Origin: Bacteroidales bacterium | Lineage (GTDB): Bacteria; Bacteroidota; Bacteroidia; Bacteroidales; F082 | Direction of reading: 5' to 3' | Length of the DNA: 42,846 nucleotides | Assembly (NCBI GenBank): GCA_017460915.1 | Contig: JAFUAA010000036.1 | Coordinates: 1-42,846 of the forward strand | Shown: in pieces, positions 5,417 through 42,846 of the stretch | Position numbering within the stretch: the stretch's first letter is position 1 | Layout: each line of letters starts with the position of its first letter | Notes under the pieces: model-generated | Seen by the model: only the letters and a program-made list of their open reading frames with translations | Told to the model about the DNA's origin: nothing | The model's database searches: none | Program-made: the position numbers and the translations under genes

Positions 5417-5437
5417 GATTTCTTCTGTTTTGAGGAT

Positions 5438-5446
5438 GCAAATTTA
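5438..5446 (-). promoter_or_regulatory. -7 box for the MORN-repeat gene
   Basis: On the minus strand the site reads TAAATTTGC, 22 bases before the ATG at 5416. It lies within 12 bases of the divergent recR box. Confidence 0.55.
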
Positions 5447-5457
5447 AGGAAATAACT

Positions 5458-5466
5458 TAATTTTGC
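5458..5466 (+). promoter_or_regulatory. -7 box for recR
   Basis: TAATTTTGC, 13 bases before the recR ATG, so the 5' leader is very short. Confidence 0.6.
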
Positions 5467-5478
5467 GCCGTTTATTGT

Positions 5479-6307: not shown

Positions 6308-6404
6308 AACCCCTTGATTTGAAGGCACGAAATAACAAAATAAAATCGGAAAAAGCAAATTATCGCAAAAGTTTTCTATTTTTGTCGGCTTTTATCATGA
6401 GAAA

Positions 6405-7298
6405 ATGAACATCACTGTCATCGGAGAATCCAACATCGACATTGCCGTGAAGCCCCAAGGCGAGCTGCGGCAAGGAGGCTGCACCCCCAGCGACATTGCT
6501 TTCCATCACGGCGGTGTGGCGCGCAATATCGCCCACAATCTCAGGCTTTTGGGACATGAGGTGCAGTTGGCCACCGTGTTTGGCGACGATGCCTTCGCCG
6601 AAAGCCTTATCGCAGAATGCCACGACTTAGGCATCGACCTTTCGCTTTCCTCGCAATACGAAAACATCAAAAGCCCTATTTTCCTCAGCGTCAACGACGA
6701 AGTGGGTAGTATGCAATCCGCTTTTTCCGACATTGAGCTCAACAGTTTCCTGGATTTGGATTGGCTCATAGCCCGCATCGATGCCGTCAACCGTTCCGAC
6801 ATGGTGGTGGCCGACACGCTTTTGAGCACGGAAGCCCTCGCTTTCCTCATCGACCATTGCATGGTTCCACTTTACATCGACACAGTATCGTCCAACCGAA
6901 CATCAGTGCTTTCCGAAGCCCTGAAAAAATCTTGGAAGAAATCGTTCCATGCAGTGAAGTGCAACCTCTCCGAAGCCCAAGCCCTGACGGGGTTGTCGGA
7001 GGCCCATGACGCCGCCATGAAGTTGGTCGACATTGGCACGGAACGGGTCTATCTGACCATGGGTGCCGATGGCGTGATCTTCTGCACTCGCAAAGACATC
7101 CGCCTTTTTCCCGCGATTGAGACCGAAGCCGTCAACGTGACAGGCTCCGGCGACGCCTTCTTGGCTGGCGTGGTTCATGCCCACGCCATCGGGGTTCGAG
7201 ATGAAGCCGCTGTCGACTTCGGCATCAAGGCCGCCTGCCATAACGTGAAAAGCGAAGCACCGGTCAACCCGACGCTTCACCCATTATTGTTATTTTGA
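6405..7298 (+). CDS. PfkB-family carbohydrate kinase, PsuK-like
   Basis: 297 residues. The first PfkB signature is at HHGGVARNIAHNLRLLG (GG 36-37, N41), and the second, with the catalytic Asp250, is in NVTGSGDAF (244-252). The family phosphorylates a sugar hydroxyl with ATP. The arrangement FHHGGVARNIAHNLRLLG, then SPIFLSVNDEVGSMQSAFSD, then ADTLLSTEALAFLID, follows the order seen in E. coli pseudouridine kinase PsuK. Pseudouridine is therefore the best substrate guess, but no psuG neighbour is present, and ribokinase-like alternatives remain. A likely -7 box, TATTTTTG, lies at 6377-6384. Confidence 0.85.
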   Translation: MNITVIGESNIDIAVKPQGELRQGGCTPSDIAFHHGGVARNIAHNLRLLGHEVQLATVFGDDAFAESLIAECHDLGIDLSLSSQYENIKSPIFLSVNDEVGSMQSAFSDIELNSFLDLDWLIARIDAVNRSDMVVADTLLSTEALAFLIDHCMVPLYIDTVSSNRTSVLSEALKKSWKKSFHAVKCNLSEAQALTGLSEAHDAAMKLVDIGTERVYLTMGADGVIFCTRKDIRLFPAIETEAVNVTGSGDAFLAGVVHAHAIGVRDEAAVDFGIKAACHNVKSEAPVNPTLHPLLLF

Positions 7299-9254: not shown

Positions 9255-10849
9255 TTAGGGTTTTTTGGACGTTTCCTGTATTTGTTTCCGTTTTTCTTCG
9301 CTAGCCGTTTGGTATCGTGAGTCATTCGTCGAAAGCTCTTTCACCTGCTCGAAGCACCATTTGGCCTCGCCGAACTTCTTTGCAACGCCTTGGGCATAAA
9401 GGAAGTCGCAGCCTAATTCGTAGAGCATCCGATAGTCGTTTTTCCCAGCCTCCATCCGATAGGCATCAAACAGCAGTTGGTGTGCCCTCGCATTGTCGGC
9501 AACCAATCCGCTGTTGCGCCGTTGCGTAGCCCAGTTCGGGTCATAGAATTCAACCTTGCCATAAGCCGCTTCGGGGTCGAAATACAACCGGCTCAAGAGG
9601 AAGGTGGCTTCGTAATTCCCCCACTCGGCAAGGCTTGTAAGCATGTCGAGACCATCCTTGGCCATGGCTGCATCCGCCAACAGCGAAACGGCCTGTTCCA
9701 CAGATGGTTCGATGATTGGCTCTGCTTCTTGGTCGGGCTGAGGTTCAGGATACACTTTGAGCGTGTCGTTTTCTTCCTCCAGCACCACGATGAGGTTCTG
9801 TGCAGGCTTGTACGTGATGGCAAGATAGGCGATTGCGCCAATGGCGACAATTGCAGATGCCAACAAGGCCACTTTATTCATCGGGTAGCGCGGCCTGGGT
9901 GTCTCGTTCAGCCACTTGTCGATGTCAACCCTGAGCTGGGCGGCGCTTTGATAGCGGTTTTGCTGTTTCTTGTCGGTGGCTTTCCTGATGATTTTCCTGA
10001 CAGTCTTGTCGTCCACTTCGTGCAACGGCAACTCATCACGCAGTTGTTTCTCCGACACTTCGTGCGCCAGGCCATCGAAAGGCAGATGCCCCCACAACGA
10101 GTTGAAACAGCATGATGCCCAAAGCGTAGATGCCTGTCGTATAGCTTTGGTGCACAATGTCGCCCGTAATCAATTCGGGTGCAGCGTAATAGGGTTTTCC
10201 TACGAACTGTCCCGTTTTGGTCAGGAGCTTGTCCTGCGAACCGATGGCGTTCACCTGACGGGCAATGCCGAAGTCGATGAACTTGAGCTTCTCGTCGGTG
10301 GTCACCATGATGTTTGACGGGTCGATGTCGCGATGGATGTAACCTTTGTCGTGCAAGGTCTGCACTCCCGACAGAATGCTGCGAAACACCGTCCCGACAA
10401 AGGCCTTGCGATTTCCGCTGTATTCGCTGAGCAGCCTTGTTGCCAGGGGATTGGTGCTGCCGTCGTGGTTGTTGGTGTTGCCGTCGAGGAACTCTTCAAG
10501 AGTTATTCCTTTCAACAATTCGCTCACCACATGGTAATGCGTAGCCACAACCTGCCCTTCGGCATTGGTATCGTTCACCTCCACGAAATCAATCATTTCC
10601 AGAAGATTGTCGTTTTTGATGCGGATGGCCGCCTCGCGCCTCGACCGGTCAATGGCCGACTGGGGCAGTCCTTCAAACAGTAGCTTGATGGCAACCTCGC
10701 GTTCCTTCTTGGCGCTGCCTTTGCCTTCCACCTTGCTTACCACGGAAGACGCGGCCCATTCCTCCCTCGCCGAGGACGTTCTTCAGGTCGGGGTCAAACT
10801 CGTAGTGAAGGTTCGGGGTTCCTTTGTCGTTAAGAATGATAATTGGCAT
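9255..10849 (-). pseudogene. Ser/Thr protein kinase with membrane anchor and repeat tail, two frameshifts
   Basis: ATG at 10849 begins MPIIILNDKGTPNLHYEFD and the Gly-rich loop VLGEGGMGRVFRG. Two bases appear missing near 10741 (cgtggtaagc; cgtggtgtaagc would restore VFRGVSK). The frame then continues with the ATP Lys in REVAIKLLFEGLP, the catalytic loop YIHRDIDPSNIMVT (about 10315-10340), FIDFGIA and YAAPEL. At the C5 tract 10089-10093 (G5 on the coding strand) one extra base shifts the frame; with four the protein reads LFQLVVGHLPFDGLAHEV. After the kinase come a transmembrane segment (ALLASAIVAIGAIAYLAI) and Sel1/TPR-like helices, ending at 9255. All kinase motifs are kept, so the loss may be recent, or the G5 change may be a read error. 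Confidence 0.8.
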
Positions 10850-23019: not shown

Positions 23020-24927
23020 ATGATGAACAAAAAACTCATATTTTCCTTGTTGTTCGGTGCGTCACTGGTCATGAGTGCCGATTTTATCCAAGCCCAAAAC
23101 GCCGAATCATACGAGTCGTTGATGAAGAAAGGCAATGACAAATATGCCGCCAAAGACTACATCAGCGCCAAGACCTATTATGAAATGGCACTGAAACAGA
23201 AATCGGGCGACGCCACGGCCAAACAAAAGCTGAACGAGACCGTCAAGAAGATCCAAGAGGACGGTGCACGCCAGGAAGTGTTTTACGCCCATCTTGACGC
23301 CGGCGACCAATACTATGGACAACAGAAATATGAGGACGCTTTGTCGGAATACGAAGCCGCGCTGAAGGTCTTCCCAGAGGACAAATACGTTGGCGGTCAG
23401 GCCGATGCCGTGCGTGCCATCCTCAAGGAGCGCCAGGACAAACAAGACGCCTTCGACCTGGCCATGAGCCAAGGCGAAACATTGCTGAACGAGGAGAACT
23501 TTGATGCCGCCATCTTGCAGTTCGAAACCGCCAACGGCATCTTCCCCAATGACAAGTTGCCCAAGGAAAAAATGGCCGAAGCCCGTCAGAAGAAGCAACT
23601 CTACAATGAGAAAGCGACTCGCTTTGACAACTTGATGGAAGAAGCCCGACAGTTGGGCCTGCGCAAAAACTACGAGGCCGCTTTGCAGAAAATCGACCAG
23701 GCTTTGGAACTCTTCCCCAACGACATGGAAGCCAACGCCAAACGCAACGAATGGCAAAATGCCAAGGGCGTGGCCGATCGTTACAACGGCATCATTGCCG
23801 AGGCCGACAGGCTCTATGAAGCCAAATCCTACAAAGAGGCCAAGTCGCAATACCAGAGCGCGTTGGCCATCGTGGCCGGCGACGCTTACGCCACCGACAT
23901 GATTGCCCGCCTCAACCCGCTCATCGCCGAACAAGATGCAGAGGAAGCCGCGCGCATCGCAGCCGAACAGGAAGCGGCGCGCTTAGCCGCCGAAGCAGAG
24001 GCCGCACAGTTGGCCGCCGAGGCAGAGGCAGCACGCCTCGCGGCGGAACAGGAAGCCGCCAGATTAGCTGCCGAGCAAGAAGCCGCGCGTATTGCTGCTG
24101 AAGAAGAGGCTGAACGTCTCGCTGCCGAGCAAGAAGCCGCGCGACTGGCCGCCGAGGAAGCCGCCCGTATCGCCGCTGAGGAAGAGGCCGCCCGATTGGC
24201 CGCCGAGGCAGAAGCCGCAAGGCTTGCTGCCGAACAAGCCGAAATCGAGGAGCACTACAACCATGCCATGGGTGCGGGCAACACTGCCATGAGTGCCGAG
24301 AAGTTTGCCGACGCCATCACACATTACCAATCGGCTTTGATTTACAAGCCTGAAGACCCGACTGCAACTGCACAACTTGCCGCTGCCGAGAAGGCCGAAA
24401 GCGACCGCATCGCTGCATTGAGGACACAGTACAACGCATTCATCAAAGATGGCGACGCCAACTTCAAAAGCAACACCTTCGACAAGGCCATCGAAGCCTA
24501 CACCAAGGCCGAAGAGCTGGGCTTGGAGACCTACCCCACAGAGATGATTGCCCGCATCGGCGAAATCATTGAACAGAACAAGTTGTACGAGCTGAACAGC
24601 GAGCCGATTCTGCTTGCCGCTGGACAAGCCCAACGCTTTGATTTCAACAAGATTGACGTGGCAGTGCGCCGCTCCAACTACATCATCATCAAGGTGCGCA
24701 ACCCGCATCCAGAAAAGACCTTCCCGATGATTGTCTCCTTCGGCGGTGCCGGCGGTAAGAACGGCGGTTTCGTGCTTCCCATTGCCGCTACCGAAGAAGA
24801 AAAGACCTTCATCTTCCGCATCGGTTCGCAATACAAGTGGTTTAGCGAAGACAACACTTGGATTGAAATCGTCTCGGAAAACAACGAGGTGGAAATCGGT
24901 AAATTGGAGGTCTCCAGAAGTAATTAA
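23020..24927 (+). CDS. TPR protein with long alanine-rich coiled coil
   Basis: 635 residues from ATG 23020 (23023 also possible), two bases after the lolD stop. Signal peptide MMNKKLIFSLLFGASLVMSA ... QAQ. The N-terminal half has TPR-like units (GNDKYAAKDYISAKTYYEMA, GDQYYGQQKYEDALSEYEAA). About 103 residues (23935-24243) then repeat EAARLAAE/EAARIAAE, a regular helical rod. A second TPR set and a C-terminal beta domain (VSFGGAGGKNGGFVLPI ... WFSEDNTWIEIVSENN) follow. Exported and probably a periplasmic scaffold. Co-transcription with lolD is likely. Confidence 0.85.
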   Translation: MMNKKLIFSLLFGASLVMSADFIQAQNAESYESLMKKGNDKYAAKDYISAKTYYEMALKQKSGDATAKQKLNETVKKIQEDGARQEVFYAHLDAGDQYYGQQKYEDALSEYEAALKVFPEDKYVGGQADAVRAILKERQDKQDAFDLAMSQGETLLNEENFDAAILQFETANGIFPNDKLPKEKMAEARQKKQLYNEKATRFDNLMEEARQLGLRKNYEAALQKIDQALELFPNDMEANAKRNEWQNAKGVADRYNGIIAEADRLYEAKSYKEAKSQYQSALAIVAGDAYATDMIARLNPLIAEQDAEEAARIAAEQEAARLAAEAEAAQLAAEAEAARLAAEQEAARLAAEQEAARIAAEEEAERLAAEQEAARLAAEEAARIAAEEEAARLAAEAEAARLAAEQAEIEEHYNHAMGAGNTAMSAEKFADAITHYQSALIYKPEDPTATAQLAAAEKAESDRIAALRTQYNAFIKDGDANFKSNTFDKAIEAYTKAEELGLETYPTEMIARIGEIIEQNKLYELNSEPILLAAGQAQRFDFNKIDVAVRRSNYIIIKVRNPHPEKTFPMIVSFGGAGGKNGGFVLPIAATEEEKTFIFRIGSQYKWFSEDNTWIEIVSENNEVEIGKLEVSRSN

Positions 24928-28876: not shown

Positions 28877-30042
28877 TCAATCAAAAAAATGCGTCAAATC
28901 ATAGTCAAAGATGCCGAATCGTGTAAAATCATGCCTCTTAAGCAACATGGTTTGCCTAACATTGAAATTCTCCCAATGGGACAACACGCCACAATATGAC
29001 CTGATTGCATTGCCGATACGATCCGAACTCGACCCTGTCTCCAACTCCCCCAATTTCTGGTCCATACGTTCCAAAGTGGCTCGGCTCAAGTAAATAGAAA
29101 AGGAAGCAAGAACGCTCCAAGATACTCTATGCCTTTCTCCACAGGGCGAATTATGGTCTTTCCCTCGTTAATCGAAAGACCAAGGCGGCTTGAAAGGAAG
29201 TCTGTAATCTGCGACACCAACGATTCAAGCCAATTCTTGTTGCAACTAACCACGAAGAAGTCATCCACATAGCGTCCATAATGCCTGCAATGCAACTCGC
29301 GCTTCATGAATTGGTCGAATTCGTTAAGATACACATTACTAAACAATTGCGAAGTCAGGTTTCCAATGGGTAAGCCACAACCTTTCGGGCTATGGAAAAG
29401 GCTTTTGTCGTGTGGCAAATTGTTCCAGTCGCTTCTGTCGCCGACGATGTGGCAGCCTTTTGTCGGGTCAAGGAGAACAATCTCACGGGTCAGATAATGC
29501 GCAAAGTTAAAGTCAACATAGTCGCTCCAGCATGTAGGCAAACATTTGCTCATGCGATGGCCGCGCATCTTTTCCAACGACTCAAGGCAAATGGCAAGCA
29601 GTCGTTCTCTGTCAATGCTCATGAAATAGCCTCGGATGTCCATTTTCAGCACGAAACAAGGTTGCGTATAGTTCCGGCTCTCTTTCAGGACATGTTGCCG
29701 CAGACGGTTAATGCCGTAATGTGTCCCCCGTCCTTTGATGCAACTATAACTATCTTGGATGAAAGTGCGCTCAAACATTTCGTGGGTATAGTTGAAATAG
29801 AGGTGATGCACTATACGGTCGCGAAAATGGGCGGCAAACACTTCGCGCCGCTTGGGGTCGGTGATGATGAAGCATTCGGAAGGCAGGGGCTTGTAGGTGC
29901 GTAGCCACAAAGCCTCGCAAAGCGAATCGAGGTTTTCTTCGATATTGGCCTCAAAGCGAAGCTGGTAAGGCTTGTGGCGCTTGTGGCGGCGGGCATCATA
30001 ATAGGCTGTATAAAGGTCGGACAGAAGTTGGTCTCGTGTCAT
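28877..30042 (-). CDS. DGR-type reverse transcriptase, frameshifted near the C-terminus
   Basis: The first frame (30042-29086, 318 residues) holds the RT palm: LKMDIRGYFMSID (Asp135), GLPIGNLTSQLFSNVYLN (223-240), YGRYVDDFF (YVDD 258-261) and KGIEYLGAFLLP. The IGNLTSQ motif, with SQ instead of the SP of group II intron and retron enzymes, marks DGR reverse transcriptases. The thumb continues in another frame to 28877: SRATLERMDQKL ... IRSYCGVLSHWENFNVRQ. One extra T in the T4 run opposite 29098-29101 would give FLLPFSIYLSRATLERM, so a single base is missing. The joined length, about 388 residues, is normal. The gene starts directly after the template repeat. Confidence 0.88.
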
Positions 30043-30087
30043 GTGTTGTTGGATTCAACAAAAAAAGGGATAGTTCTCGGCAGGGCA

Positions 30088-30270
30088 AACGAGGCGGACG
30101 GATTGACCGTTGTAACGGTTGTTGGCGTTGTCAGTGTTGAGGTTGCCATCGTTGAAGTTCACGTTCCACGCGTTGTTGCTATTGTTGTACGAAGCCGACC
30201 AGTAGTTGCCGTTGCCGCCCACATTGTTGACCGAAGTCCCGTTGCAGTAGCCAGCGGCAGGCAGGAAGAC
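30088..30270 (-). repeat. DGR template repeat (TR)
   Basis: Read on the minus strand from an in-frame TAA (30273-30271), the sequence encodes VFLPAAGYCNGTSVNN, then VGGNGNYWSAS, then a run in which almost every second residue is Asn, ending NRYNGQSVRLV. There are 18 Asn codons (16 AAC, 2 AAT) in about 61. This is the C-terminal C-type-lectin/FGE-sulfatase-like signature of DGR targets, written with AAC so that adenine mutagenesis can vary each site. There is no start codon, and the frame runs on to a TGA overlapping the RT start codon (ATGA). Exact TR edges need the matching variable region, which is not in this window. Confidence 0.88.
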
Positions 30271-30273
30271 TTA

Positions 30274-30748
30274 TGTACGCGTCGGCGGTTGTCTTTTACG
30301 CCATGCCAAAAGAACGGTTTCCAAATCGAATGATTCCTATTTGGCTTTGAATCTCAATTAGTTACCATTGCAAAAGAAGAAACAGGTAACACTTTAGAAA
30401 CGAGAGGACTTACATATTCCCACACGTTTTACACAAATCCAAAGAACGCTCTTACTGGATGCAAAGGTACAAAAGAATGCGCAAATGCCCAAACTTTCTT
30501 TGGACTATTTGCGTCTCATAACATCTGTTGCTCGCCTTCCTACCAAACATAAGTGCCGTAATCAATATCATTCCCCCTCTCTCAGTTACATGCGGGTTAC
30601 ATAATATTTACAACTGAAAATCCCTTTATTTATCGGCCCTTTCAAAAACCACTCTTCTATAAAAACATGCCTCCAGTTACATACTGGTTACATACCCTAT
30701 GCTCGGAATAGCACATATTTATTACTCTAACCTAAGGTCACAGTCTCT
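30274..30748. other. Gene-free region upstream of the DGR template
   Basis: No coding sequence on either strand. It contains the minus-strand promoter below and two copies of CAGTTACATrynkGGTTACATA (30583-30603 and 30674-30694), each with two GTTACAT half-sites. An Avd accessory gene, often found here, is absent. Confidence 0.6.
30461..30469 (-). promoter_or_regulatory. -7 box for the DGR template RNA and RT
   Basis: Minus-strand TACCTTTGC with TTTG about 20 bases upstream (30493-30490). Transcription would begin near 30455 and carry about 180 bases before the template repeat. Confidence 0.65.
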
Positions 30749-32119
30749 TCACTTGCCTTCTTTCAATAACATCCATCTACCTGCACTTGTATTACCAGTA
30801 CGGCTGAGGATACCTTTTTTTTGCAAGTCAGCGAGATTGCGTTCCAATGTGCGTTTAGCTACCGCCAAAGCTACCGCCATTTGTGCAACAGTAATGCGTG
30901 AGTCATTTTTTATCAACTCACATATCTTTATTTGTATCTCTGACAGTTGCACTACCGCCAAACTACCGCCACTACCGCCAGAATTACCGCCATTACTGTC
31001 ATTATTTACATTTTTGATCTCGTCAGAATTGTATTGGTATTTCTTTTTGAAAACAATCTTCACCTCATGACCATCAGTCATATATTCGGGCTCTGGCACA
31101 CCTTGCTCACGGCATAGTTCTACCATACGGCTCACACCTGTACCCCATCTTTCAAGATTAGTCGAAAGATATAGCACTTGAGCTATTCTCAAATTATAAG
31201 GGTAAGAGCCATGAGGCTCCTTGATGGTCTCAGGAGTCAGTGGTACAGGCAAACGGCCAGGATTGGTTATCTCCAGCCGGTCATCAAAGATTGCCAACGA
31301 CACTGTAGCCCGTGGATCATCATATCGACGATGGCAAAGGGCATTGGTCAGAGCCTCACGAAGAGCTTCTATCGGAATTTCCAAATGTTCCTCACGCAAC
31401 AAACCTTTCACCTCACCGCTCAGGCTAAGATGACGGAAACAAAACGCTATGCCAGCATCAAGCAGATTATAGAAGTTTCCCTCAGCTTGCTTGTTATCAA
31501 CAAACACAAGTTTATCCTTACCACGGAAGTATGCCATTCGCAGCATCAACTGAGGATAATCGTAGAGGTTTTTGCCGAACAATACAACTGCTGCATTGGT
31601 AATCTTGCCTTCTCTCAATAACTTGAATTTATCCAATAAAGATTCCAGACCATCATTCTCGGCAGATGCATTAATGCGACCTCCTGTTATACCACCACGC
31701 ACAGCGTTACGGATACGCTCCTCACTTAGGTCGGCAATTGTAATACTATCGGCTACTTGCGCCTCCCAAGCGAACTTATTAGGATTACTACTACGCAAAC
31801 GCTCATCATAAATCTCACGAGGCATTAACCGTGTTATACTCTCCATGCGAATATATGGACGACCTTGATAAGTGTAAGGAATCTGCCCCTCTTCCCAACT
31901 GTCAAAATGCAGGGCAATTACCTGCTTGCCGCCACTATCTGGAACTTCTATGTATTGTGCTCTAACATCTATAGCAGGTTCCATACCTGATAATGCTTGT
32001 GCCAACTCCCGTTGTGTGTTGTCGGTCACCATTTGCCCAACTATCTTCAATGATGTAGGTGCGATGCCAAATATCAACCAACCGCCTTCTGTATTAAGAA
32101 AGGCACAAGCAGACTGCAT
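30749..32119 (-). CDS. AlbA_2/Schlafen-type ATP-binding protein, N-terminus missing
   Basis: 456 residues. It begins at MQSACAFLNTEGGWLIFGI, which is already inside the AlbA_2 core. Typical members have about 20-30 residues with a [E/F]K-rich strand before it. In frame, KCSRFFKDG precedes the Met, then TAA. The rest is complete: REALTNALCHRRYDD (ATP lid and Asn box of HATPase_c_4), GTGVSRMVELC and a C-terminal winged helix (SRITVAQMAVALAVAKRTLERN) after a Gly/Ser linker. Probably a transcription regulator or NTPase of the island. It lies 19 bases after the HEPN-like gene; its 5' end may have been lost when that cargo was inserted. Confidence 0.8.
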   Translation of the reverse strand: MQSACAFLNTEGGWLIFGIAPTSLKIVGQMVTDNTQRELAQALSGMEPAIDVRAQYIEVPDSGGKQVIALHFDSWEEGQIPYTYQGRPYIRMESITRLMPREIYDERLRSSNPNKFAWEAQVADSITIADLSEERIRNAVRGGITGGRINASAENDGLESLLDKFKLLREGKITNAAVVLFGKNLYDYPQLMLRMAYFRGKDKLVFVDNKQAEGNFYNLLDAGIAFCFRHLSLSGEVKGLLREEHLEIPIEALREALTNALCHRRYDDPRATVSLAIFDDRLEITNPGRLPVPLTPETIKEPHGSYPYNLRIAQVLYLSTNLERWGTGVSRMVELCREQGVPEPEYMTDGHEVKIVFKKKYQYNSDEIKNVNNDSNGGNSGGSGGSLAVVQLSEIQIKICELIKNDSRITVAQMAVALAVAKRTLERNLADLQKKGILSRTGNTSAGRWMLLKEGK

Positions 32120-32138
32120 ACCATCCTTGAAGAATCTG

Positions 32139-33626
32139 CTACATTTTTAATAGTGATATTAATTTTTCCGTAGACTGATTCAAGCTCTCCTTGACCTCTT
32201 CGTCTCTGCAAGATTGAAGAACTATATTACGTATATTCTCCAATTTATTAATCATTTCGCGGTTTCGCTGGTCTTGTACTCTTTTAATATCTGTATATCT
32301 GATATTTGCTACTTCTTGGTCTAATCTCATAACATCTGGCAAGATCTTCAAGAATTTTAGAGCCTTGTTCATTTCAACGAGAGGGTTCATCTTTATCAAT
32401 TTGTCTGTAAAGCGTGGGATATAGTCTGAATCATTCTTCTCACGTATATGTACAGACATATTTCTTAAATCCTCATCGTTGATAGAGGAATCATATGCAA
32501 GTGTTTCTAATTGTTTTTCTATTACCAATGCTCTATTTCTCCAATCATCGTTTCCCTCTCCTATTATTATAGGATACAAGAAATCTTTCCAGAATGCACT
32601 TTGTGCTTTTTCATTATTATTGTTTCCTTTTGTATTGCTATTCTTAAACCCATACATTTTTTTCATCCCCTCATATACAATTACATTCAAATGGCGGAGG
32701 TTTAATTGTTTCTCTATATAATGCTCTGAACTGAAATATGCGATAACAGCACAGCAGATGTCAATATAAATGAACAAAAGGAGCATTCCTGGATGTATGG
32801 ATTCTCTTATTGGCTGCACATGGGATATAATATTTTCGGCTCCGAACTTTTTGCCCACGATTTCTGGTAACCTATAACTATTGGCAATACTGTCCAGAGT
32901 CTTGCAATAAGAATTTAAACTCGATTTTGTCTTTAGCAACAGCTGGTTATCCTTATCTGGAAAAAAGTTCAATCTCTCCCATAAAGAGTAATCTTGAATT
33001 TGTGGCATCCCCAATGGCAAATGCATTTCTGACGAAATCTTATAGACCAGTTCTAAAAGCCTGTGACAAATTTCCAGGAACTTGGAAACTTGCTTCATCT
33101 CCTCTTCTTCAGATAATCTGCATAGAAAATCATAGACTTTTATCGGGTCAAAATCATAATGTATAGCGAAATCCCGTCTATCTTTAGAATCTGTATGCAA
33201 AAAAGTACCACTGTAATCGGCTACTAATGCATCTATTTCTGTTCTATCTTTCTCATCAATGTTTATTCCATTATTACAAAACTTTTTCCACAAACAATGC
33301 TTGGCTTTACCAAAGCCGAACATCGCCTTGAAAATCTCTGTCTGAATAACATTAAGATATTTCAAGTGAATCCGTTTTTCCCACACGGTTTCTGCTCTTT
33401 GTTCTGCTCTAATGGCAGTAACGATGTCAAGATGGCAGAAAAGGACAAAGTAATCTACACGCAATAAATCCATCCAGAATCTCTTCCCTTCAGATTGCTC
33501 ATCTATAGAACCCAAGACTCTGTATAATTCTAAAACACTTAATAAGGAAGGGTACATTGATGAAATATTCTCTCCCATGCTCTTATAGATAGTGTCCAAT
33601 TGCTGTTTTGTTGCTTTTCGTCCCAT
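32139..33626 (-). CDS. Tandem-duplicated HEPN-like protein, possible RNase effector
   Basis: 495 residues, no known family recognised. The two halves are copies: LKYLNVIQTEIFKAMFGF (about 88-106) matches LRHLNVIVYEGMKKMYGF (about 310-327), preceded by hydrophobic helices VLFCHLDIVTAI and LLFIYIDICCAVI, and followed by LWKKF and FWKDF. Each copy then has Arg-x4-His: RDFAIH (R151, H156) and RNMSVH (R388, H393). Rx4-6H in an all-helical domain is the catalytic signature of HEPN ribonucleases, used as effectors in many defence and toxin systems. AT-rich compared with the flanking methyltransferase gene. Starts 22 bases after the membrane-protein gene, so the two form one unit. Confidence 0.7.
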   Translation of the reverse strand: MGRKATKQQLDTIYKSMGENISSMYPSLLSVLELYRVLGSIDEQSEGKRFWMDLLRVDYFVLFCHLDIVTAIRAEQRAETVWEKRIHLKYLNVIQTEIFKAMFGFGKAKHCLWKKFCNNGINIDEKDRTEIDALVADYSGTFLHTDSKDRRDFAIHYDFDPIKVYDFLCRLSEEEEMKQVSKFLEICHRLLELVYKISSEMHLPLGMPQIQDYSLWERLNFFPDKDNQLLLKTKSSLNSYCKTLDSIANSYRLPEIVGKKFGAENIISHVQPIRESIHPGMLLLFIYIDICCAVIAYFSSEHYIEKQLNLRHLNVIVYEGMKKMYGFKNSNTKGNNNNEKAQSAFWKDFLYPIIIGEGNDDWRNRALVIEKQLETLAYDSSINDEDLRNMSVHIREKNDSDYIPRFTDKLIKMNPLVEMNKALKFLKILPDVMRLDQEVANIRYTDIKRVQDQRNREMINKLENIRNIVLQSCRDEEVKESLNQSTEKLISLLKM

Positions 33627-33648
33627 TTCTTATTCCATTCTCATTTTA

Positions 33649-34464
33649 TTAATTGCTTTCTATTTGTTTTGCTGCTTGCTGTTGTCCTATTGCCATAGAC
33701 TGGATGGCATTAGACATGTCTATCTGAACTTTCGCACTCTTGTACATTTCATAGTTGCCAAAAAGACAATTATCCCATAGCCCCATGTCTATCTCATGAA
33801 GCATTTGGTCAATTCTTTCTGGAACGGCTTTACCCGTTTGGTCATATAACACATCAGAACAGGCTTGCTCATGTAGTATACGCAAAGAAAGATATTCTCC
33901 TAAACCAAAATCTGACACCCAAGTTTTAGGATATGAGACTTGTTTGGTTTCACTATTATACTGGCTTTTTGCCAGGACCTCTCTTACATATTTCTTCCCA
34001 ACCGCTCTGACAGCAGCATATTGACGATTTGAGTTGAAATAAGTTTCTGCGTCAATAAAGAACAAGTTGTCGCAATGTTTCTGACTTATCTGGAGTATTA
34101 TCCCATCTATTTCTTTCTCGTCAACGACCTTCTCGTCAAAATGGATTCTATGAATGTCGAAAGTCTCATTTGCAGGAACAATGATAGGTACTCCCAATTT
34201 GTGCAGCAAAACTATAATCGTTCTTTTTTGTGCGATAGTCAAATCTGTGTTAAATTGGTTTTCTGCCTTAATATAGGATTGATTGTTGTAGTGTTTAATA
34301 ATGTCTAATGCTTTAATAGCGATATTCCGTACTGCCTCCATCTTTTTGTTTTCTTGAGCCTTTTGATACTTATTACCAAAGTATGCACCAACCCAGCCGC
34401 CAAGAACGGCTGCAAGAATTGGAATTAGGATATATGCCCCAATGTTAAATGTTGTCAGTTCCAT
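33649..34464 (-). CDS. Membrane-anchored protein of the HEPN-like module
   Basis: 271 residues. One N-terminal membrane helix (about 8-30, IGAYILIPILAAVLGGWVGA), a basic coiled segment (KYQKAQENKKMEAVRN), then a cytosolic domain of unknown family (TIIVLLHKLGVPIIVPANET ... DFGLGEYLSLRILHEQACSD). It has no enzyme motif I can name. Its position behind a 183-base operator-like region and directly before the HEPN-like gene suggests a membrane sensor or anchor for that effector. AT-rich. Confidence 0.75.
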   Translation of the reverse strand: MELTTFNIGAYILIPILAAVLGGWVGAYFGNKYQKAQENKKMEAVRNIAIKALDIIKHYNNQSYIKAENQFNTDLTIAQKRTIIVLLHKLGVPIIVPANETFDIHRIHFDEKVVDEKEIDGIILQISQKHCDNLFFIDAETYFNSNRQYAAVRAVGKKYVREVLAKSQYNSETKQVSYPKTWVSDFGLGEYLSLRILHEQACSDVLYDQTGKAVPERIDQMLHEIDMGLWDNCLFGNYEMYKSAKVQIDMSNAIQSMAIGQQQAAKQIESN

Positions 34465-34647
34465 TTCGTTATGAATTTTATGTTGCTATATTTTTATTTG
34501 GCAATGTGCGACTTGCACTTTTTGAGTTACCCATTAACTATAATTGAGTTACCCACTAACTCTATTATAGTTACCCACTAACTCAGAAGGCGCTAATGTC
34601 TTGCATATCTATATTCCTGCTTTTATTTTATACATATTTAGCCTCTG
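34465..34647. promoter_or_regulatory. Operator-like region with three 22-bp phased palindromes
   Basis: Three copies of AGTTA-CCCAy-TAACT (AGTTA and TAACT are inverted repeats) start at 34525, 34547 and 34569, exactly 22 bp apart, about two DNA turns. No coding sequence. The site lies between the ATPase stop and the start of the membrane/HEPN-like pair, where a dimeric repressor would act on an internal promoter. Confidence 0.6.
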
Positions 34648-36192
34648 TTAATTCTTTTTAAAGTAAGTTTGCAACACATAATGCAATATATAAGAACCTT
34701 CAGTATTTAATTCAACTATTTGGCCTGATGTTTCTCTATATTTAAAACCAACGTTTCCATTTTCGTCATAATTGCCAATGAGCGAATAATCAAATAAATC
34801 TGAAATGATTTTTGCAGTATTGTTAAGGCCATTACTGCGTAGTTCTGACACAATCGTGCTATGCTTAAATGGCCTTCTATAAGTACCATAACTATCTCTT
34901 AATGCGTCAAAAATGCTTTCAATTTCATTAGCATCATAATTAACAGATAGTTCCCCTTTTATGTCTGTAATCATTTCACGAGCATACCTATCCATTAATA
35001 TGTTATTGACATCATTGGAAGTTATAGGTAAACTTAGGTCAAGACTGCCAATATCTTTAAAGAATAGTATCAAATCACGAGGCCTAAAAAAAGTATGGTC
35101 TATAATATGTTTAAAACCAGTTTTTTCACCATAGAAACTTTTTTCGTCAATGAAAGATGTCCATGGGTCATTATTATCGTTAATCACTAAACCTTTTTTC
35201 TGAAAATTTACAGATATTCTTCTGTTTATAAATTGCCTAAGAAGAAGTTTTGGCTCATTATACTTATAGATATCTTCATACCATCGTAATTCTGTTGCAT
35301 AACTAGAAAAAATCTTTGGCATATCTGCAGAATAAATAAGATGCTTTTGAATATCAGTACGCAGAAAAACAATTATTTTGGATTCAATAGCATTCCTTGC
35401 AAATATATCATTATTATAATATTTTATAGTTCTTATTAGTTCAGTTAATGTATCAATACTTTCTTGATTATTCAAGTTTAGACCAATGTCTAAATCGTCA
35501 AACATTAAGATGTACTGGTTGTCTTTATCTGCTTTCAGAATATCTGTAACGACTTTCTCCAAATCAGGGATTAGTTTGTAAAATTCTGCTTTTTCGTACT
35601 TATATTGTTTGTTTGTATTTCCAGAAGCACTGAGATATCTCTTGAAATATTCAATACTTACAGATAAACCGTACTGGTGAATTATCTCTTTAACCTCGTA
35701 ATTCTTTATATTAATAAATCCACGGCTCTTTTTTATAAAATCAGAAAGATAATTCATGCCTTTTACGCATGCTAAACTCTGATTCTCTGCAAATAGGGCC
35801 ACAAATTTAGTAAGGACAATCCACTTATACAACAAGCCTCTTTCAATAATAACTCCTTCTTCTTTTCCTATCTGCACAATCTTTTCAATATCTATATCCT
35901 CTTTCTTAATGAAATCACAAAACATATTAGCTTCATTTTTAGCTAAAGAAAGAACATGTTCCCCTATTGCAGATTTACCAGTTCCTTTACGTCCAAGAAC
36001 TATAAACTTTTCATTGTTCAATTGTTTTAGAACATCTAAATAGTCAACAAAGAAGGTATCTAATTTAATAGATGCTGTTGTTGCCTCAGCTTCTGCTTCT
36101 GGTATGCCAATACAAAAGCCTTTTGTTGTTGCATGATAGGAGTTGCCTCCATTAATATTAGTCTTGGTTATTAGTTTGTCAAAAACTCCCAT
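34648..36192 (-). CDS. P-loop ATPase of the defence-type Sll1717-like family
   Basis: 514 residues. Walker A GRKGTGKS (67-74), Walker B QYILMFDDLD (226-235, D232/D233), and an arginine-sensor-like FLRTDIQKH. It also has FFRPRDLILFFKDIG, common in the P-loop ATPases called the Sll1717 family; that family name is from memory of the motif pattern. STAND/AAA-like ATPases of this kind often sense or drive effectors in defence islands. It starts 25 bases after the methyltransferase stop. Markedly AT-rich compared with the methyltransferase. Confidence 0.8.
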   Translation of the reverse strand: MGVFDKLITKTNINGGNSYHATTKGFCIGIPEAEAEATTASIKLDTFFVDYLDVLKQLNNEKFIVLGRKGTGKSAIGEHVLSLAKNEANMFCDFIKKEDIDIEKIVQIGKEEGVIIERGLLYKWIVLTKFVALFAENQSLACVKGMNYLSDFIKKSRGFINIKNYEVKEIIHQYGLSVSIEYFKRYLSASGNTNKQYKYEKAEFYKLIPDLEKVVTDILKADKDNQYILMFDDLDIGLNLNNQESIDTLTELIRTIKYYNNDIFARNAIESKIIVFLRTDIQKHLIYSADMPKIFSSYATELRWYEDIYKYNEPKLLLRQFINRRISVNFQKKGLVINDNNDPWTSFIDEKSFYGEKTGFKHIIDHTFFRPRDLILFFKDIGSLDLSLPITSNDVNNILMDRYAREMITDIKGELSVNYDANEIESIFDALRDSYGTYRRPFKHSTIVSELRSNGLNNTAKIISDLFDYSLIGNYDENGNVGFKYRETSGQIVELNTEGSYILHYVLQTYFKKN

Positions 36193-36217
36193 ATTAATTG
36201 TACTTTAGTTTATTCTG

Positions 36218-39200
36218 TTATTTGTTATATTCTTCTCGTGTTATTGGAGTCTCTGGGTCTATGATGAGAACTTCATCGTAGGTCAGGCCATAGAGGTGAT
36301 AGACAAGGAGGTCGATTTTGTCCTCCAAGTCTTTCGTGTCGGCTGCAGGGTCTGCCTCTTTTGCTTTCAGAATGTTGTTCACTAAGTCAATGATAGTATT
36401 TTGCTTTTCTTGAATAACAGAAGGGATGGGGATTTGTTTTAGCATTTTCATGCTTACTCTCGGAAACAGTGTCTGATTAGATTTGTCGCCGAAAGAAGCA
36501 ATATAATACCCGACTGCTTTTGAGTTGAGAATTGCAAGTATATACTTCAAATTTGTTCTAGAAGAATAACTTCTTATATTGAAAACTGACTTGTTGAATA
36601 GGGCAAATGTTTCTATATAAGCGCATATTAATGTATTGGAGGGTATTTCCCGAATAACAATTCTTGGCCCATCAAAAAACCTCCTGGCGGGTTTAGTGTA
36701 AAACTCCGCTCCATAATCTATCCATTTACTTGGCAACTTATTGATGACATATTTTGAAAAATGCTTACCACCATAGTCTCTAACATAATTATCATTTACT
36801 CGATAATCACTATGCAAGAATTTGGACTTCATTTCTTCTGCTGTGTGAATAGAATTATGATATGGTTGTGCCCCTAAGCACATTTCTATTCCGTCAACAT
36901 CGTTCAGCAAAGAAGAATCTTTTTGCATTTTCTCCTTTATAAAGAAAGCTGCGTTGTCCGCATTTATTGGTATTTCGTAAAGCGATGTCGATTTAATTCT
37001 GGTGGTGTCTAATTGCACGGAACTTGTTCCTTGGGCAGAATGTAGATGTACTGCTATTGCATCTGTAACAGAATCCTTCAACAAAAGAAATACGATACTG
37101 TTTACAGATGCCTCAAATACGCTTTCATCATAATTGTCAATAAATTCTATGCTATTCTTATCAATTATAAAACGCCGTAACTTAGCACAATTTTTAATTG
37201 AGAGGAAAGTATTAGGGGTTATAAATGACAGACAGCCTTTTTCGGAACACAAATACAGTCCTTTTTCTATAAAGAGCCTATATAAATCAATTTTTCCTTC
37301 TTGGTATTTATAGAATTTCTCATAAAGGATTTTGAATACGTCCTTACCAATGAGAACATACGGTGGATTTCCTATCACGACATCAAATCCACCTTTCACT
37401 CCAAACATCCATTCGGCATCGAAGTAGGAAGATGAGGCATTCTGGTCGAACATGTCCCAGCCTGCAAGGAGTTCGGCTTCGCTGTGACCGACAAAGCCAG
37501 TGTCTTCAATGGCTTGTGCAAGGGCAACACGGGTTTCTTTGATACTACGTTTTAAACGGTCTTTCTCAACTTTCCGCTTTACCAAAAAGCACTTGTGGTT
37601 GAGTTCTTTCAGCCGGTCTTTATTCTGTCGGACTTCTGGGTTGCTGTCCACCAGTGTGGCATCATACTCTATAGGGATGAGTGTGTTGGCTGCCACAAAC
37701 TTCGATTCGAGGTTGGGCAGAGGGCGAATGCCAAAGTTCTGGGTGGCATCCGTCGTGGGCTTCTGGTCGACAACCAGCGAGATGAAGAAACGTAGTTTAG
37801 AAATCTGTACGGCAATGGGCTGGATGTCCACACCGTAGATGCAATGCTCTATGAGATAGAGTTTGCGGGCATAGTCCGGATCATTGATGTTTCGGTTGAA
37901 AGCCTCCTCAATGTCAGCCAGTCGAGCCTTGCGCTCTTCCTCGGCATCGGCAGAGAAGGCTACACGCGACTGCTCGATGGCAAGGTCAACCATAAACTCT
38001 TTCCACATCTCGTTGGTGGGGTCAAGTTGGCGAAGTATATGTACCATCTGCTGAAGCACACCCATCGGGAAAGCCCCAGACCCACAGGCAGGGTCGAGCA
38101 CACGGCAGTTATAAAGGGCATGCATCACCTGTTGACGTTGTTCCTCGGTAAGCGTGGTCTCGTCGGTGGCATAACTGAGCAGTCGGCGGTATTCCGTTTC
38201 CATCTCGTCGCCACAAGTGCGCTTGAGGTGTGCCACCAGACTTTCGTCCACCATATACTGTACTATCTCGCGGGGTGTATAGAATGAACCTGTCTGTTTG
38301 CGTGCAGAGGTCTTGGTCTCGGGATTGTAAGAGGCCAATAGGTTCTCGAAAGCCTTTCCCAGCAGTTCAGGGTCAAGCGACACTTCTTGGTCGAGTGGCG
38401 TATTTTCCTCAATGGTAAAGTTGTAGCGTTTCAGAATGTCGATGATGCCGCGAGCAGACACCTTTTTCTTCTTGGCATCGCCATACCACTGCGAGAGGTC
38501 AACGCTGCGCCCCCATCTCGTCGCCAAAGAAAAGCCAATCGGGCAAGTAAAGTTGTTCGAGCGAACGCTTGTACTCCGAAAAACCATCGTAGTACATCTT
38601 GTTAGGCTTGTCGTCAAGACAATCGAATAGACCACCATTAAGGAAGGGTACACTGTTGTTAGCAAGGGCCATGAATTCGTCGGCACCACCTTCCTTGAAG
38701 TCATCCTTATAGCGCATCAAGTTGTTGATGTCATTCTCCGTATTGTAGAAGCCATAACGCTTGCTGTCGCGGAAACGCCGATTATTGGGCGCATCTTCAC
38801 CATCTGCCACAATGGGGCAGTTCAGCATAGCAAAGAAGAGGTTTTGCAGAATGAGACGGTAATACTTACTCTGCTCTGCATCATAAAGCAACGTCTTCCG
38901 CTCATGTGGATTGAACTCGTCAATAAAATGTTCACGGATATATCGCTCATCAAAGAATTCCTCTGGAATGAGGTGTTTCTGTTTGAGGAACCACACAAAG
39001 ATGAGGCGAGTGATAAGACGGATGCAACTCTCATGGTTGAACTTGTCATCGTCCTCATTGGTGTTGAGGTCGTTAGGGAAGCGAGCCACTTGCACCGCCC
39101 ACGCATACCAGTCGCTAAGTTCGGAGTAGAACTTCTTGGTAAGCAGTTCGGAAGAAAAGACCTGCATCCAATGCTTGTAAAGTTCCTCGAAGGTGGGATA

Positions 39201-39767
39201 AGGCTTGTCACCGATAGACTCCAGAATGTCAATATGCCCACGGTGTGGATGCTCACAGTTGATGCCACGCAGAATACTCACCTTGCCTAATTTCTCACCG
39301 TCACGCCACTGCTGGGTATAGTCGCTGCGTTCACAGGTGGCCAGTGCCAACTGCTTACCTTGCTTGATGAACAGAATGACAGGCTGAGCAGCGGCAATGC
39401 GATTGAAACCACGGGTGAGTGTTGCCATCTCGGTACGTGTCAGCGACTCACCATTATAGACATCTACCGCGAATATCATCATTCCTGCATATCGCCCTTC
39501 GGCGGCTTGGCTGGTTATATCGTCAATATCCTTGTCCTCTGCATGGCCTGACAGCGAAGCCTCATCCACCGTGCCAATGAAATAGGTTCTTTCCACTTTC
39601 GGCAAGACAGCCTGTAATGCCTTTGTCAGCGGCATGGGATAAAGGCTTTCGAAAGACACAGGTGTGCGTGTCACATCATTGTTAAACTGGATGTGCAGGT
39701 GTTCGAGCAGGGCTGCACATGCATTGAACAGCGAATCGGTGGTAAAGGTTTTCAGTGTTGCTTTCAT
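36218..39767 (-). CDS. Eco57I-like N6-adenine DNA methyltransferase, frameshifted at a G5 tract
   Basis: About 1,180 residues in two frames. The first (39767-38499) is the helical N-terminal part and ends GDEMGAQR. The second, used from about 38510, continues RSVDLSQWYGDAKKKKVSAR, TGSFYTPREIVQYMVDESL, motif I VLDPACGSGAFPMGVLQQM and motif IV DVVIGNPPYVLIG, ending in a target-recognition domain (QIPIPSVIQEKQ). One G fewer in the G5 run opposite 38510-38514 gives GDEMGRSVDLSQWYGD, so the break is a one-base slip. The gene may be truncated, phase-variable or misread. It is the DNA-modifying part of the island and is similar in layout to BREX PglX or DISARM DrmMI enzymes. Confidence 0.85.
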
Positions 39768-39851
39768 TTTCTTTTCTCTTTTAGGGACAATTATTGGGAC
39801 AATTATTGGGACAATTATTGGGACAATTATTGGGACAATCTTTACCGAATG
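39768..39851. repeat. 12-bp tandem repeat between AlbA_2 and methyltransferase genes
   Basis: GGGACAATTATT is repeated four times plus nine bases (39784-39840). It ends about 16 bases before the methyltransferase ATG (minus strand). On the minus strand the in-frame reading is (I)VPIIVP repeats without a start codon. Confidence 0.85.
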
Positions 39852-41351
39852 CTATTTAAGAATTAACCAGAAGCCCTTCTTTGTTCCTTTGCGTTCGATG
39901 TAATTATCAACTTTCAGTTTGTCAATCAGATATTCAACTCTCCTCTTTTTAATTTCTAACAAATCCGCAATTTGCTGCATGGTAATACTTGGATTGTCTC
40001 GAATGACAAAATAAATGTCTCTTATTGCATCATCCAATCCTTCAAAAATATCTTTTTGACTATCCAGATCAATCCTTTCACCTTCAAAGTCGGGATGACA
40101 TGGTATGTCAATCAGGAAATACGTACGACCTTCATCCGTTTCGATGGTGGCAGGTGAAGAACCATTTTTCTTCAAAGCTGCCTGAATGGTTGGTATGCCT
40201 GTGGCCCGTCCTTCTGTCAAACCAAGTTCCTTTAAGAAATCTCCCAACCTTCTGTTCTTGTATCTGCGTGAACGTAATGATTTAGCTTGTTTAATAGCTT
40301 CGTCACTAATGGAACGGTCCGGTCCGGAATAGCTTAATATACTGATTCTTCCAGGTTCTATCGTAATCTCAACAGGCTCGTATAGTTTATAATCTCTATG
40401 GTATAACGCATTTGTTACAGCCTCTTCCAAGGCGGCATAAGGATAATTAAAGTATTTCCGGGGTTCCTGCTTATTGGGCAGTTTTTCAATACGCTCTTTA
40501 ATTACATTGGTTCTTAAATAGTCAAGCGTTGCGCTAATCATGTATGGAACCGGCCCTTTTATAGTAGGCGCCTCAATAATATTGTCGGGGTCTTGTTCTC
40601 GGCCATTTGGAAATAAGACAATATCAACTTGAGTATAAGGGAAGAAAGTATCTGGCTTTTCGCAAAACATCATTGTTGCAACATTCTTGATGAGTCTTTT
40701 TTCTGTTGGTCCTGTTAACAAGTTCATGTTAGCGAGAATGTCTTTCATCGGAATACGGCCAATATCTTGCCCTAAGCGGCTGTCGACCTTTACCAGATAG
40801 TCACGTAATTGGACTAAAGATATGTCCTCCAAACGAACGTTTTCATTACCTCTGTCGTCGAACGGAACTTTTTCCGACATTTCTCTTAGTTGGTCTAATA
40901 AATCACCTTTCGCCTCAATAGAACTGGTACCATATCGCACATAGAACACAGGCTTCTTCAATTTAGCCATGACATTTTCGGGAGCAGTATATGGGCGCTC
41001 AGTGCCACTGGGCACCCAAATGGCAAGGATATTCTTTCCGTCAATTTCTTCGACAGAAATGCGAGGTGCATAAAAAGGTTCGATGAGATTATTGTATCCC
41101 ACCATTTCCTTTTGGATTTTATCCAATTGCTCGATAGGAAGGCCTTTAACGGGACGCTTCGCTATTCCGTTCTCTTCCTCAACTCCCACAAGAATGTATC
41201 CCCCGCCAAGATTGTCAATGTCGTTGGCAAAGGCACAGATGCTGTGATAGATACTCTGAGGGTTCCATCCTGTCTTGAATTCAATCCTGTTAGATTCGAC
41301 CTTGCGCTTGTTAAGCAGGTCTTCTATATTAATAGGTATAGCCATATCCAC
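39852..41351 (-). CDS. AlbA_2-type ATP-binding protein (complete)
   Basis: 499 residues. N-terminal AlbA_2 domain: SNRIEFKTGWNPQSIYHSIC, AFANDIDNLGGGYILVGVEE. The middle has EAVTNALYHRDYKLYEPVEI (HATPase_c_4) and GRATGIPTIQAALKKNG, and the C-terminus a winged helix (SITMQQIADLLEIKKRRVEY). It is the only complete one of three AlbA_2 proteins in the window and gives the reference for the deletions in the others. It starts 7 bases after the helicase stop and so belongs to the same operon. Probably a regulator or nucleic-acid-linked NTPase of the defence system. Confidence 0.88.
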   Translation of the reverse strand: MDMAIPINIEDLLNKRKVESNRIEFKTGWNPQSIYHSICAFANDIDNLGGGYILVGVEEENGIAKRPVKGLPIEQLDKIQKEMVGYNNLIEPFYAPRISVEEIDGKNILAIWVPSGTERPYTAPENVMAKLKKPVFYVRYGTSSIEAKGDLLDQLREMSEKVPFDDRGNENVRLEDISLVQLRDYLVKVDSRLGQDIGRIPMKDILANMNLLTGPTEKRLIKNVATMMFCEKPDTFFPYTQVDIVLFPNGREQDPDNIIEAPTIKGPVPYMISATLDYLRTNVIKERIEKLPNKQEPRKYFNYPYAALEEAVTNALYHRDYKLYEPVEITIEPGRISILSYSGPDRSISDEAIKQAKSLRSRRYKNRRLGDFLKELGLTEGRATGIPTIQAALKKNGSSPATIETDEGRTYFLIDIPCHPDFEGERIDLDSQKDIFEGLDDAIRDIYFVIRDNPSITMQQIADLLEIKKRRVEYLIDKLKVDNYIERKGTKKGFWLILK

Positions 41352-41358
41352 TATTGTT

Positions 41359-42846
41359 CTATTTGCTTACATACTCCCAAACGATTAGGTCGAAATTCTC
41401 TTTCTTGAACTTCTCTTCCAGTAATTGTGCATTCTTGTCTTGTGCTGCTTGCTTTAGCACACCATTTCTTGACTGAGCGATTTGCAGAATGGCAGCAGTA
41501 GCCTGTTGTGGAACCTTTGTTTCCATCCATTGCTCAATGATATTCGAGAGGCGGCTAATGCGGTCAGACTGGTGAGTTTCTATCCATTCGGGGACAAACC
41601 GTTCTTCTGTTTTATTTTGTCGAAGAAAGCCAAGCACCTCGGCACGGTTCAACTCTGTGTAGGTCGCTGGTCGCTGGTTGTCCACAGGCTGGCACATCAG
41701 GTAGATCTCCCTGTAGGGCTTATTACTGCCCTGCTCACGATGTGGATATCCGATGACAGCCACAAGGCTTTCTGGAATCTGTTCAAACAGCGTATCCGTA
41801 TGTTTAAACCCAGAGAAGATGCCATTAGGCATCCGACGGAAGACCTCTTTATTCTTCTCAAAATAGTCTATTAGGTCTTGGCGATAGACCTCAAAGGAGA
41901 AGTCCTTCAGCGAGAGAGTGCGTGGCGATTCAATGTCGCTGATGCTGTTATTCTGCAATTCTTCTAACAATCGGTCAGCATTCTTATCCTGCAAGGGATT
42001 GTCGGCCTCCATTTTGATATAGGCATCGTTCAACTGTTGCGTTTCAGAGCCGACAAGGTTCATGGCTACCATACGGTTCATGATACGCGTTTCCAAATGC
42101 AGATAATCCTCGAAAGACTTGGCTGGCCAAAAGTTGACACAACGAATAAGGTGACATGGCGAGCCAATACGGTCGATACGTCCGAAACGCTGAATCAGAC
42201 GGACGGGATTCCAGTGTATGTCGTAATTGACTTGCATATCGGCATCCTGTAGGTTTTGACCCTCCGACAGACAGTCGGTGGCAATCAAGATGTCAATGGG
42301 GTCGTGAAGCAAAGCGGCATAGTGTAGACGGTGTGTCTCAATGAGTTGCAACCACAGGTCGTAGGGCACATCCCATCGCCGCCGTTCGTCATCATAATAC
42401 GCAGGCCGGCTCAGATGTGCATCCTCATAGAGATCGTTCCAGTCGCGTTCCTTATAGAGTTTGCTGTAAGGAGCAAAACATTGAAGCACTTCGTTGAAGT
42501 TGCTGGTCTGCTGTCTGCCTGTTGTATGAATGTCTTGACCTGACACGGAGGCAATATGCGAGAAGCCACGACGGGTGAGCTCGTCAAACAGAAATTTCGC
42601 TGTGTCTGCGTATGCCGTAAAGATGACAACTTTCTTATTCTCTGCTTTTTGCTTACCTTGAAGAATTGTAACCAACTCTTCCAGTTTTTTGTCTTGCTCG
42701 AATCCATTGCGGTAGTCTTTTGCAAACGCTTCAAGACTGTCACATATCTCGCGCAAGCGGTTCACGTCATAGCGCAGTCCAGCCTCAAAGCCACCAATAT
42801 TCTGCATGTCGGCCAAATTGATGGTCCCCTTACGCAGAGTGAAACG
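41359..42846 (-). CDS. SNF2-type helicase, C-terminal part (runs off the window)
   Basis: 496 codons open to the right edge. Helicase C-terminal lobe: [19 protein letters not shown] (motif IV area), [19 protein letters not shown] (motif V) and [14 protein letters not shown] (motif VI, with the Arg finger), followed by a long helical tail. Such SNF2/RapA-like helicases pair with large adenine methyltransferases in DISARM (DrmD with DrmMI) and in some restriction systems. The ATP-binding lobe lies beyond 42846. First visible gene of the operon. Confidence 0.88.

Follow-up and report, generated by a model that had tools for sequence, protein, structure and literature searches.

Probable splitting of a Bacteroidales diversity-generating retroelement inside a predicted leader RNA by an integrative defence island, and its likely recent stalling

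Diversity-generating retroelements (DGRs), the MSL (MutS-like) accessory class and remote targets are already known. In the DGR of Bordetella phage BPP-1, for which we know of no leader RNA of the kind described below, mutagenesis is directed at template adenines, as it is here, but the accessory protein is Avd and not MSL. As far as the accessible parts of the sources go, the spacer between template repeat (TR) and reverse transcriptase (RT) takes part in the template RNA of BPP-1 (PMC12875486), whereas the gap measures just 33 nt here, and BPP-1 homing needs a hairpin downstream of the variable repeat (VR) (PMC3240598). The DGRs of Treponema denticola resemble the present one in their lipoprotein targets, some of which lie far from the RT; their core, however, keeps a target of its own, the accessory is HRDC, and the accessible portion of the report mentions no island (PMC4891356). 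MSL-type DGRs of gut Bacteroidales and of viral contigs (L058, L062, L031 and others) share with the present DGR an RT identity of 55-68%, a TR directly upstream of the RT, MSL and adenine-specific differences, and 31 of the 32 scored have target and MSL in cis, whereas the DGR studied here is divided over two contigs, very probably by an island. The window that we analysed is one entire contig (C6, 42,846 bases) of a draft genome of 79 contigs and 2.98 Mb (G000). Taken as a whole, the data make it likely that this is a Bacteroidales DGR of the MSL type, that an integrative defence island has cut its operon, and that it has recently stalled.

The TR extends over 196 nt of the window (30076..30271, minus strand; limits set by ungapped identity to the VR) and contains 49 adenines. 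A genome-wide search with the TR returned a single VR, on contig C43 (1766-1961, minus strand), where it forms the C-terminus of a 689-aa open reading frame (ORF). Over the 196 ungapped nt the two repeats differ at 26 sites, and 25 of these are TR adenines (13 A>G, 11 A>T and 1 A>C; hypergeometric P about 5e-17 for at least 25 of 26); 146 of the 147 non-adenine sites are the same in the VR, the sole change being T>C. The other eight matches in the genome were at most 32 nt long, with E 0.007 or worse, and were rejected as a second VR of the same TR. A repeat search of the window gave no second copy of the TR. The TR reading frame (FLPAAGYCNGTSVNN...NRYNGQSVRLV, 65 codons) has 16 AAC and 2 AAT codons and lacks a start codon because a stop lies directly upstream. 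A preliminary description of the window had proposed a DGR with an Asn-rich template frame (18 Asn, 16 of them AAC) that lacks a start codon and has no repeat copy in the window, and had placed the VR elsewhere in the genome, where a search should find a second copy differing almost only at template adenines. The DGR-type RT and the TR/VR pair bear this out; the limits proposed for the template (30270-30088) mark the right locus but have to be widened.

The one non-adenine difference falls in a codon that reads TGC in the TR and CGC in the VR. The matching codon in the TRs of 23 relatives is CGN in 17 and TAC in 3; since it is TGC in none and CGN in so many, the TR was probably altered after the last homing event, and comparison with the relatives suggests that the difference is probably drift in the TR. 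Within the VR on C43 (L011:1766-1961), adenines were changed at 19 of 21 first codon positions and at 6 of 26 second positions (Fisher P 5e-6), and 9 of the 17 altered Asn codons became Tyr. The skew by codon position may reflect mutational bias or selection.

Directly after the TR, as had been described, follows an RT with the motifs IGNLTSQ and YVDD (318 aa; 29086..30042, minus strand), which is 55-68% identical to the RTs of loci with TR/VR pairs. The profile comparison proposed earlier assigned it to the RT family PHROG 1423 (E 1e-84). Its best PDB match, 8ub7 (E 5e-32), is presumably the BPP-1 DGR RT; a group II maturase was matched at E 5e-11. The open frame of the RT ends early, and a C-terminal piece that resembles the C-termini of the relatives (LSRATLERMDQK...SYCGVLSHWENF...FGIFDYD) lies in another frame (28877..29089, minus strand). 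Among 38 distinct relatives with the RT end on the contig, 36 have an aligned RT frame of at least 355 aa, against 320 aa in L032 and 339 aa in the distant L148. In L032 (= L071), whose TR/VR pair has 5 non-adenine differences, the RT frame ends near the same place as in the window, and in the viral relatives L143-L146 315 residues are matched over 946 nt, i.e., the frame changes near the RT N-terminus. The methyltransferase encoded in the window (see below) is, like the RT, split into two frames, and with two such breaks in the same window both could be sequencing errors. The RT frame break is present in this assembly and may stem from a sequencing error.

Close relatives (RT at least about 55% identical) number 42; their sources are the same genus, Bacteroidales metagenome-assembled genomes (MAGs) that stem mostly from ruminants and horses, and viral contigs. 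One of the 42, L142, repeats L140. RT relatives below 54% identity (L039-L048, L082-L136, L148, L149) and the duplicates L065 and L071 were left out of the counts. For the cis count we used the 32 relatives with at least 1.5 kb of sequence upstream of the RT, those with less being L037, L038, L072, L077, L079, L080, L142, L143, L146 and L147. The operon order target, MSL, leader, TR, RT is found at one locus in 31 of the 32 as to target and accessory gene, and the leader model introduced below matched in 26 of the 32 and left 6 unmatched (L033-L036, L067 and L141). In the 31 cis relatives, about 1.0-1.7 kb separate the VR from the RT start downstream of it, and the accessory gene is placed between VR and TR. 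Summed over the 31 cis relatives, TR and VR differ at 692 adenines and at 24 other sites, counts that lean toward the adenine outcome since only non-adenine mismatches were penalised in the scoring that picked out the pairs, and that cover part of the repeat only in some relatives (L057, L034, L035). In the cis exception, L067 (yak reticulum MAG, 3676-7134), the target with the VR stands immediately upstream of the RT, and TR, MSL and leader are missing, an arrangement that recombination between TR and VR might leave; with the target abutting the RT and the three other parts absent, we rejected it as a second split DGR. In L031, L034 and L060, a single TR goes with two VRs, both no more than about 6 kb from the RT, so that one template serves two targets. 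Within the genus, 16 of 99 genomes have DGR-like RT matches. The genome studied here has a second, distant cis DGR on contig C75 (L039; RT 35% identical; TR 10667-10790, VR 9957-10080), in whose pair 14 of 39 TR adenines are changed, with zero other differences in the scored stretch.

The accessory protein is taken to be MSL, a class equated with PF01624 (MutS domain I) in the accessible part of the source (PMC10053308). Matches to this family stayed below its cut-off (E 0.062 for the protein on C43 and 0.0013 for its homolog in L031), and the predicted structure (pLDDT 87) has MutS as its best PDB match (prob 0.99, E 0.03). Altogether, 31 accessory proteins were aligned. The gene on C43 (953-1486) has the same relative place as in 31 relatives, and here it does not adjoin the RT.

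Parts that form one operon in the relatives are distributed as follows: C43 carries the target, MSL and the 5' half of the leader, and the window carries the 3' half of the leader, the TR and the RT. Both contigs leave the sequence of the relatives at the same 12 bp, GGAAACCGTTCT (window 30311..30322 and C43 751-740, minus strand), beyond which unrelated island DNA begins. These 12 bp, a direct repeat present at each junction and so at both island ends, are a candidate att core or island target duplication. With the flanks joined through the 12 bp, an unbroken BLAST match to L062 of about 170 nt is obtained (E 1e-15). Of 24 relatives, L062 alone has a match that spans the junction; the others match one side. 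Taken alone, the window flank has, apart from a single chance hit of 12 nt, matches only from a point some 10 nt beyond the junction, and the C43 flank has matches before the junction only. From these comparisons it is very likely that the DGR operon was split inside the leader RNA by the island. C43 and C6 are unjoined in the assembly, a genome-wide search for a bridge gave no further match to either contig end, and the middle of the island, with any integrase therein, is missing. Should C43 and C6 adjoin in the genome, the distance between TR and VR would be 14.3 kb or more.

A draft assembly as fragmented as this one, with its 79 contigs, invites the explanation that the island was mis-joined to the DGR and that the true operon is intact. 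Such an artefact would presuppose that two misjoins arose independently at the same 12 bp, and two further element ends in the genome resemble that of C43; we regard an artefact as very unlikely. The thought that TR and RT were always separate from a lipoprotein that is simply their normal trans target has a precedent in Treponema denticola, as far as the accessible text goes (PMC4891356), and is hardly credible here: C43 also has MSL and the leader 5' half in the order of the cis relatives, the same 12 bp mark the break on each contig, and both helices of the leader are divided over the two contigs. On these grounds an independent remote target was rejected. The variable region had earlier been thought to lie simply elsewhere; it is indeed remote, on another contig, but it is not an ordinary remote target, the arrangement being in cis in 31 of 32 relatives and the operon here apparently split by the island.

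The leader is, judged by sequence comparison, a structured and covarying RNA. Unguided, RNAalifold on 22 relatives predicted a 7-bp helix, P1, which closes the leader right before the TR and has two-sided changes in 5 of its 7 pairs. A second helix, P2, and a 3-bp hairpin were added by eye on the same alignment, and their share of the covariation count is therefore biased upward; P1 is independent of that choice. P1, P2 and the hairpin together pair in 85% of cells versus 68% in shuffles, have 84 cells with two-sided changes versus 30.9, and reach a covariation score of 0.595 versus 0.279, with 0/500 shuffles as high in all three measures. The signal falls when the partner is slid by 1-3 columns. 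Weaker measures gave 14 pairs with a two-sided change versus 11.5 (40/500) and 37 pair types versus 32.6 (16/500).

The 12-bp junction sits in the apical loop, that of P2, and the strands of both helices are found on different contigs. The 5' strands lie on C43 (P1 800-793, P2 765-758), and the 3' strands lie in the window half of the leader (30272..30310, minus strand; P2 30309-30302, P1 30291-30284). Across the two contigs, 8/8 positions are paired in P1 as well as in P2. As a control, the C43 strand of P1 pairs fully with 163 of the 42,839 8-mers of the window minus strand and that of P2 with 7 of 42,839; in the reverse direction, the window strand of P1 pairs fully with 1 of the 11,993 8-mers of C43 and that of P2 with 26 of 11,993. 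A covariance model trained on the 22 relatives, without the window or C43, and run over 58 sources recovered 30 full leaders, namely the 22 used for training, 2 duplicates (L065, L071) and 6 new ones. Its two weakest matches are the junction halves, window 30366-30256 (15.9 bits, E 0.44) and C43 812-691 (14.4 bits, E 0.89); searched as regions alone, they gave E 0.0006 and 0.002, respectively. Rfam had zero matches in three whole relatives at the gathering cut-off and in window 29900-30900 at E 0.1.

On the window side, the island (30323..42846, minus strand) carries defence genes. The genes on this side encode an AlbA_2/HATPase_c_4 protein (30749-32119), two unknowns (32139-33626 and 33649-34464), a Sll1717-type ATPase (34648-36192), a type IIG/PglX-like methyltransferase in two overlapping frames (36218-38704 and 38499-39767), an AlbA-like protein (39852-41351) and the C-terminus of an SNF2-type helicase that runs up to the contig end (41359-42846). 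Three genomes of the genus contain close homologs of both the helicase and the methyltransferase (in one of them, the methyltransferase is covered only up to the end of the contig), and the other island genes were not found beside those homologs. In L172 and L173, the methyltransferase homologs align collinearly through the frame-break point of the window gene (36218-39767). Between two island genes lies an imperfect inverted repeat with 37-nt arms (76%; window 34515-34593). At 23915-24260, the window has nine overlapping repeat copies, mostly 27 bp apart and AARLAAEQE-like in translation, inside a 640-aa ORF that is TPR-like by eye.

The 590 nt of the window-side island end have zero matches in 98 other genomes of the genus, and this end is therefore not independently defined. 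The C43 island end, from about 133 nt inside the junction, is 73-74% identical to element ends on two further contigs of the same genome, C62 and C20. The C62 end is followed by two tyrosine recombinases and a type I restriction-modification (R-M) system. Over the matched 188 nt, this tyrosine-recombinase element with R-M cargo has an end 74% identical to that on C43, but it has kept its two recombinase genes, whereas the C43 element has other cargo and just a 27-nt remnant resembling an integrase start. PF00589, the one family searched, has six matches in the genome as assembled without the island middle, and none on C6 or C43. The relatives L158, L172 and L173 do not bear out a reading in which an HTH gene, located at the end of C43, leads on to the helicase. 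The island is most likely an integrative element.

The target ORF on C43 contains fn3 repeats upstream of its C-terminal VR. Its start, LFGGLMFFVSSCKKE, resembles a lipoprotein signal by eye, in agreement with the earlier suggestion that the target is perhaps a secreted or surface protein. As to a CLec-like fold, the TR frame matches Pfam Lcl_C with E 1.6e-5, below the family cut-off, and the model of the target (pLDDT 64), too weak to place the variable residues, has the Lcl C-terminal domain as its best PDB match at E 0.55. The C-terminal domain family of the target has matches in 56 of 100 genomes searched, with up to 27 in one (G038). Among viral contigs, no occurrence of the target protein was confirmed. 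A perfect 22-bp inverted repeat begins 25 nt downstream of the VR on C43, whereas the best stem downstream of the TR has 6 bp; BPP-1 likewise has an inverted repeat downstream of its VR, according to the accessible part of the report (PMC3240598). For 29 of the 31 cis relatives (L057 and L081 left out), the mean length of the best stem is 8.8 bp downstream of the VR, 5.9 bp downstream of the TR and 5.6 bp in shuffled sequence. Stems of at least 10 bp follow the VR in 10 of 29 and the TR in 0 of 29, the VR stem being weak in many.

We conclude that the DGR was active until recently. Just one non-adenine difference in 147 sites means that homing is recent or still ongoing, and separation alone need not stop a DGR since remote targets are known (PMC4891356, in its accessible part). 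The main rival of a stalled system is therefore a working trans-acting DGR, in which TR and RT are transcribed from an island promoter, the 5' half of the leader is either not needed or contributed by C43, and the remote VR continues to be rewritten by homing. A Bacteroidetes-type promoter-like sequence (TTTG-N20-TACCTTTG; 30462..30493, minus strand) does lie in the island end, about 190 nt upstream of the TR, and points at TR and RT. The strict pattern, TTTG-N19-21-TANNTTTG, has one match in the window, with 0.5 expected by chance and at least one in 42 of 100 shuffles, so that the match is notable for its place alone; within 750 nt upstream of the RT, 0 of 24 relatives have a strict match. 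The preliminary description had let this promoter supply the template RNA; the strict match is present, but it belongs to the island and not to the DGR, and it is a candidate only. A working trans system would also fit the identity of TR and VR at nearly all non-adenine sites and the perfect inverted repeat that the VR has kept, like the BPP-1 hairpin, and the RT break may be an error, breaks being found in other relatives as well. However, both conserved helices are without their 5' strands, for which the 200 nt preceding the junction offer at best 6/8 (P1) and 7/8 (P2) paired positions, and the stretch upstream folds no better than shuffles (z -0.68). Furthermore, the RT frame is broken in this assembly and the TR carries a probably derived non-adenine change that is absent from the VR. 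Continued homing in trans thus seems rather unlikely to us, and we lean toward the view that the DGR is now stalled.

The split and stalled DGR may be pictured as follows. Before the insertion, the TR RNA would have been made together with the leader, its copying by the RT would have been error-prone at A, and the resulting cDNA would have rewritten the C-terminal region of a surface lipoprotein. The integrative defence island would then have entered the apical loop of the leader, adjoining the TR, and any TR RNA made after the insertion would have to start in the island, without the 5' strands of both helices. With these strands lost and the RT frame broken, homing would probably have stopped or been strongly reduced, leaving the VR frozen at its last diversified state. 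It is also imaginable, as a long shot, that the leader, as an undescribed RNA of MSL-type DGRs, is needed for homing and that the island uses the apical loop as an attachment site, so that excision and integration would switch the hypermutation of the surface lipoprotein on and off.

A search of the open literature (titles and abstracts, with most subscription papers outside the search) found neither a leader RNA of this kind nor an island-split DGR; it also found no mechanistic work on the MSL accessory class, the search not being keyed to the word MSL. That an island-split DGR within a covarying leader, and the leader itself, are new to the literature is offered as a lead and not as proof. 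The method of the survey by Roux et al. would, according to the accessible part of the paper, not detect remote targets (PMC8144416). Where a fragmented assembly has a TR-RT pair but no target beside it, the other contigs should be searched for one.

In sum, the split amounts to a natural experiment, in which TR and RT have been parted from the target, MSL and half of the leader, and it asks which of these parts homing needs in cis. The leader is a testable candidate for the site where the RT or MSL may grip the template RNA. The split further illustrates how a diversification system can be disrupted by mobile defence islands.
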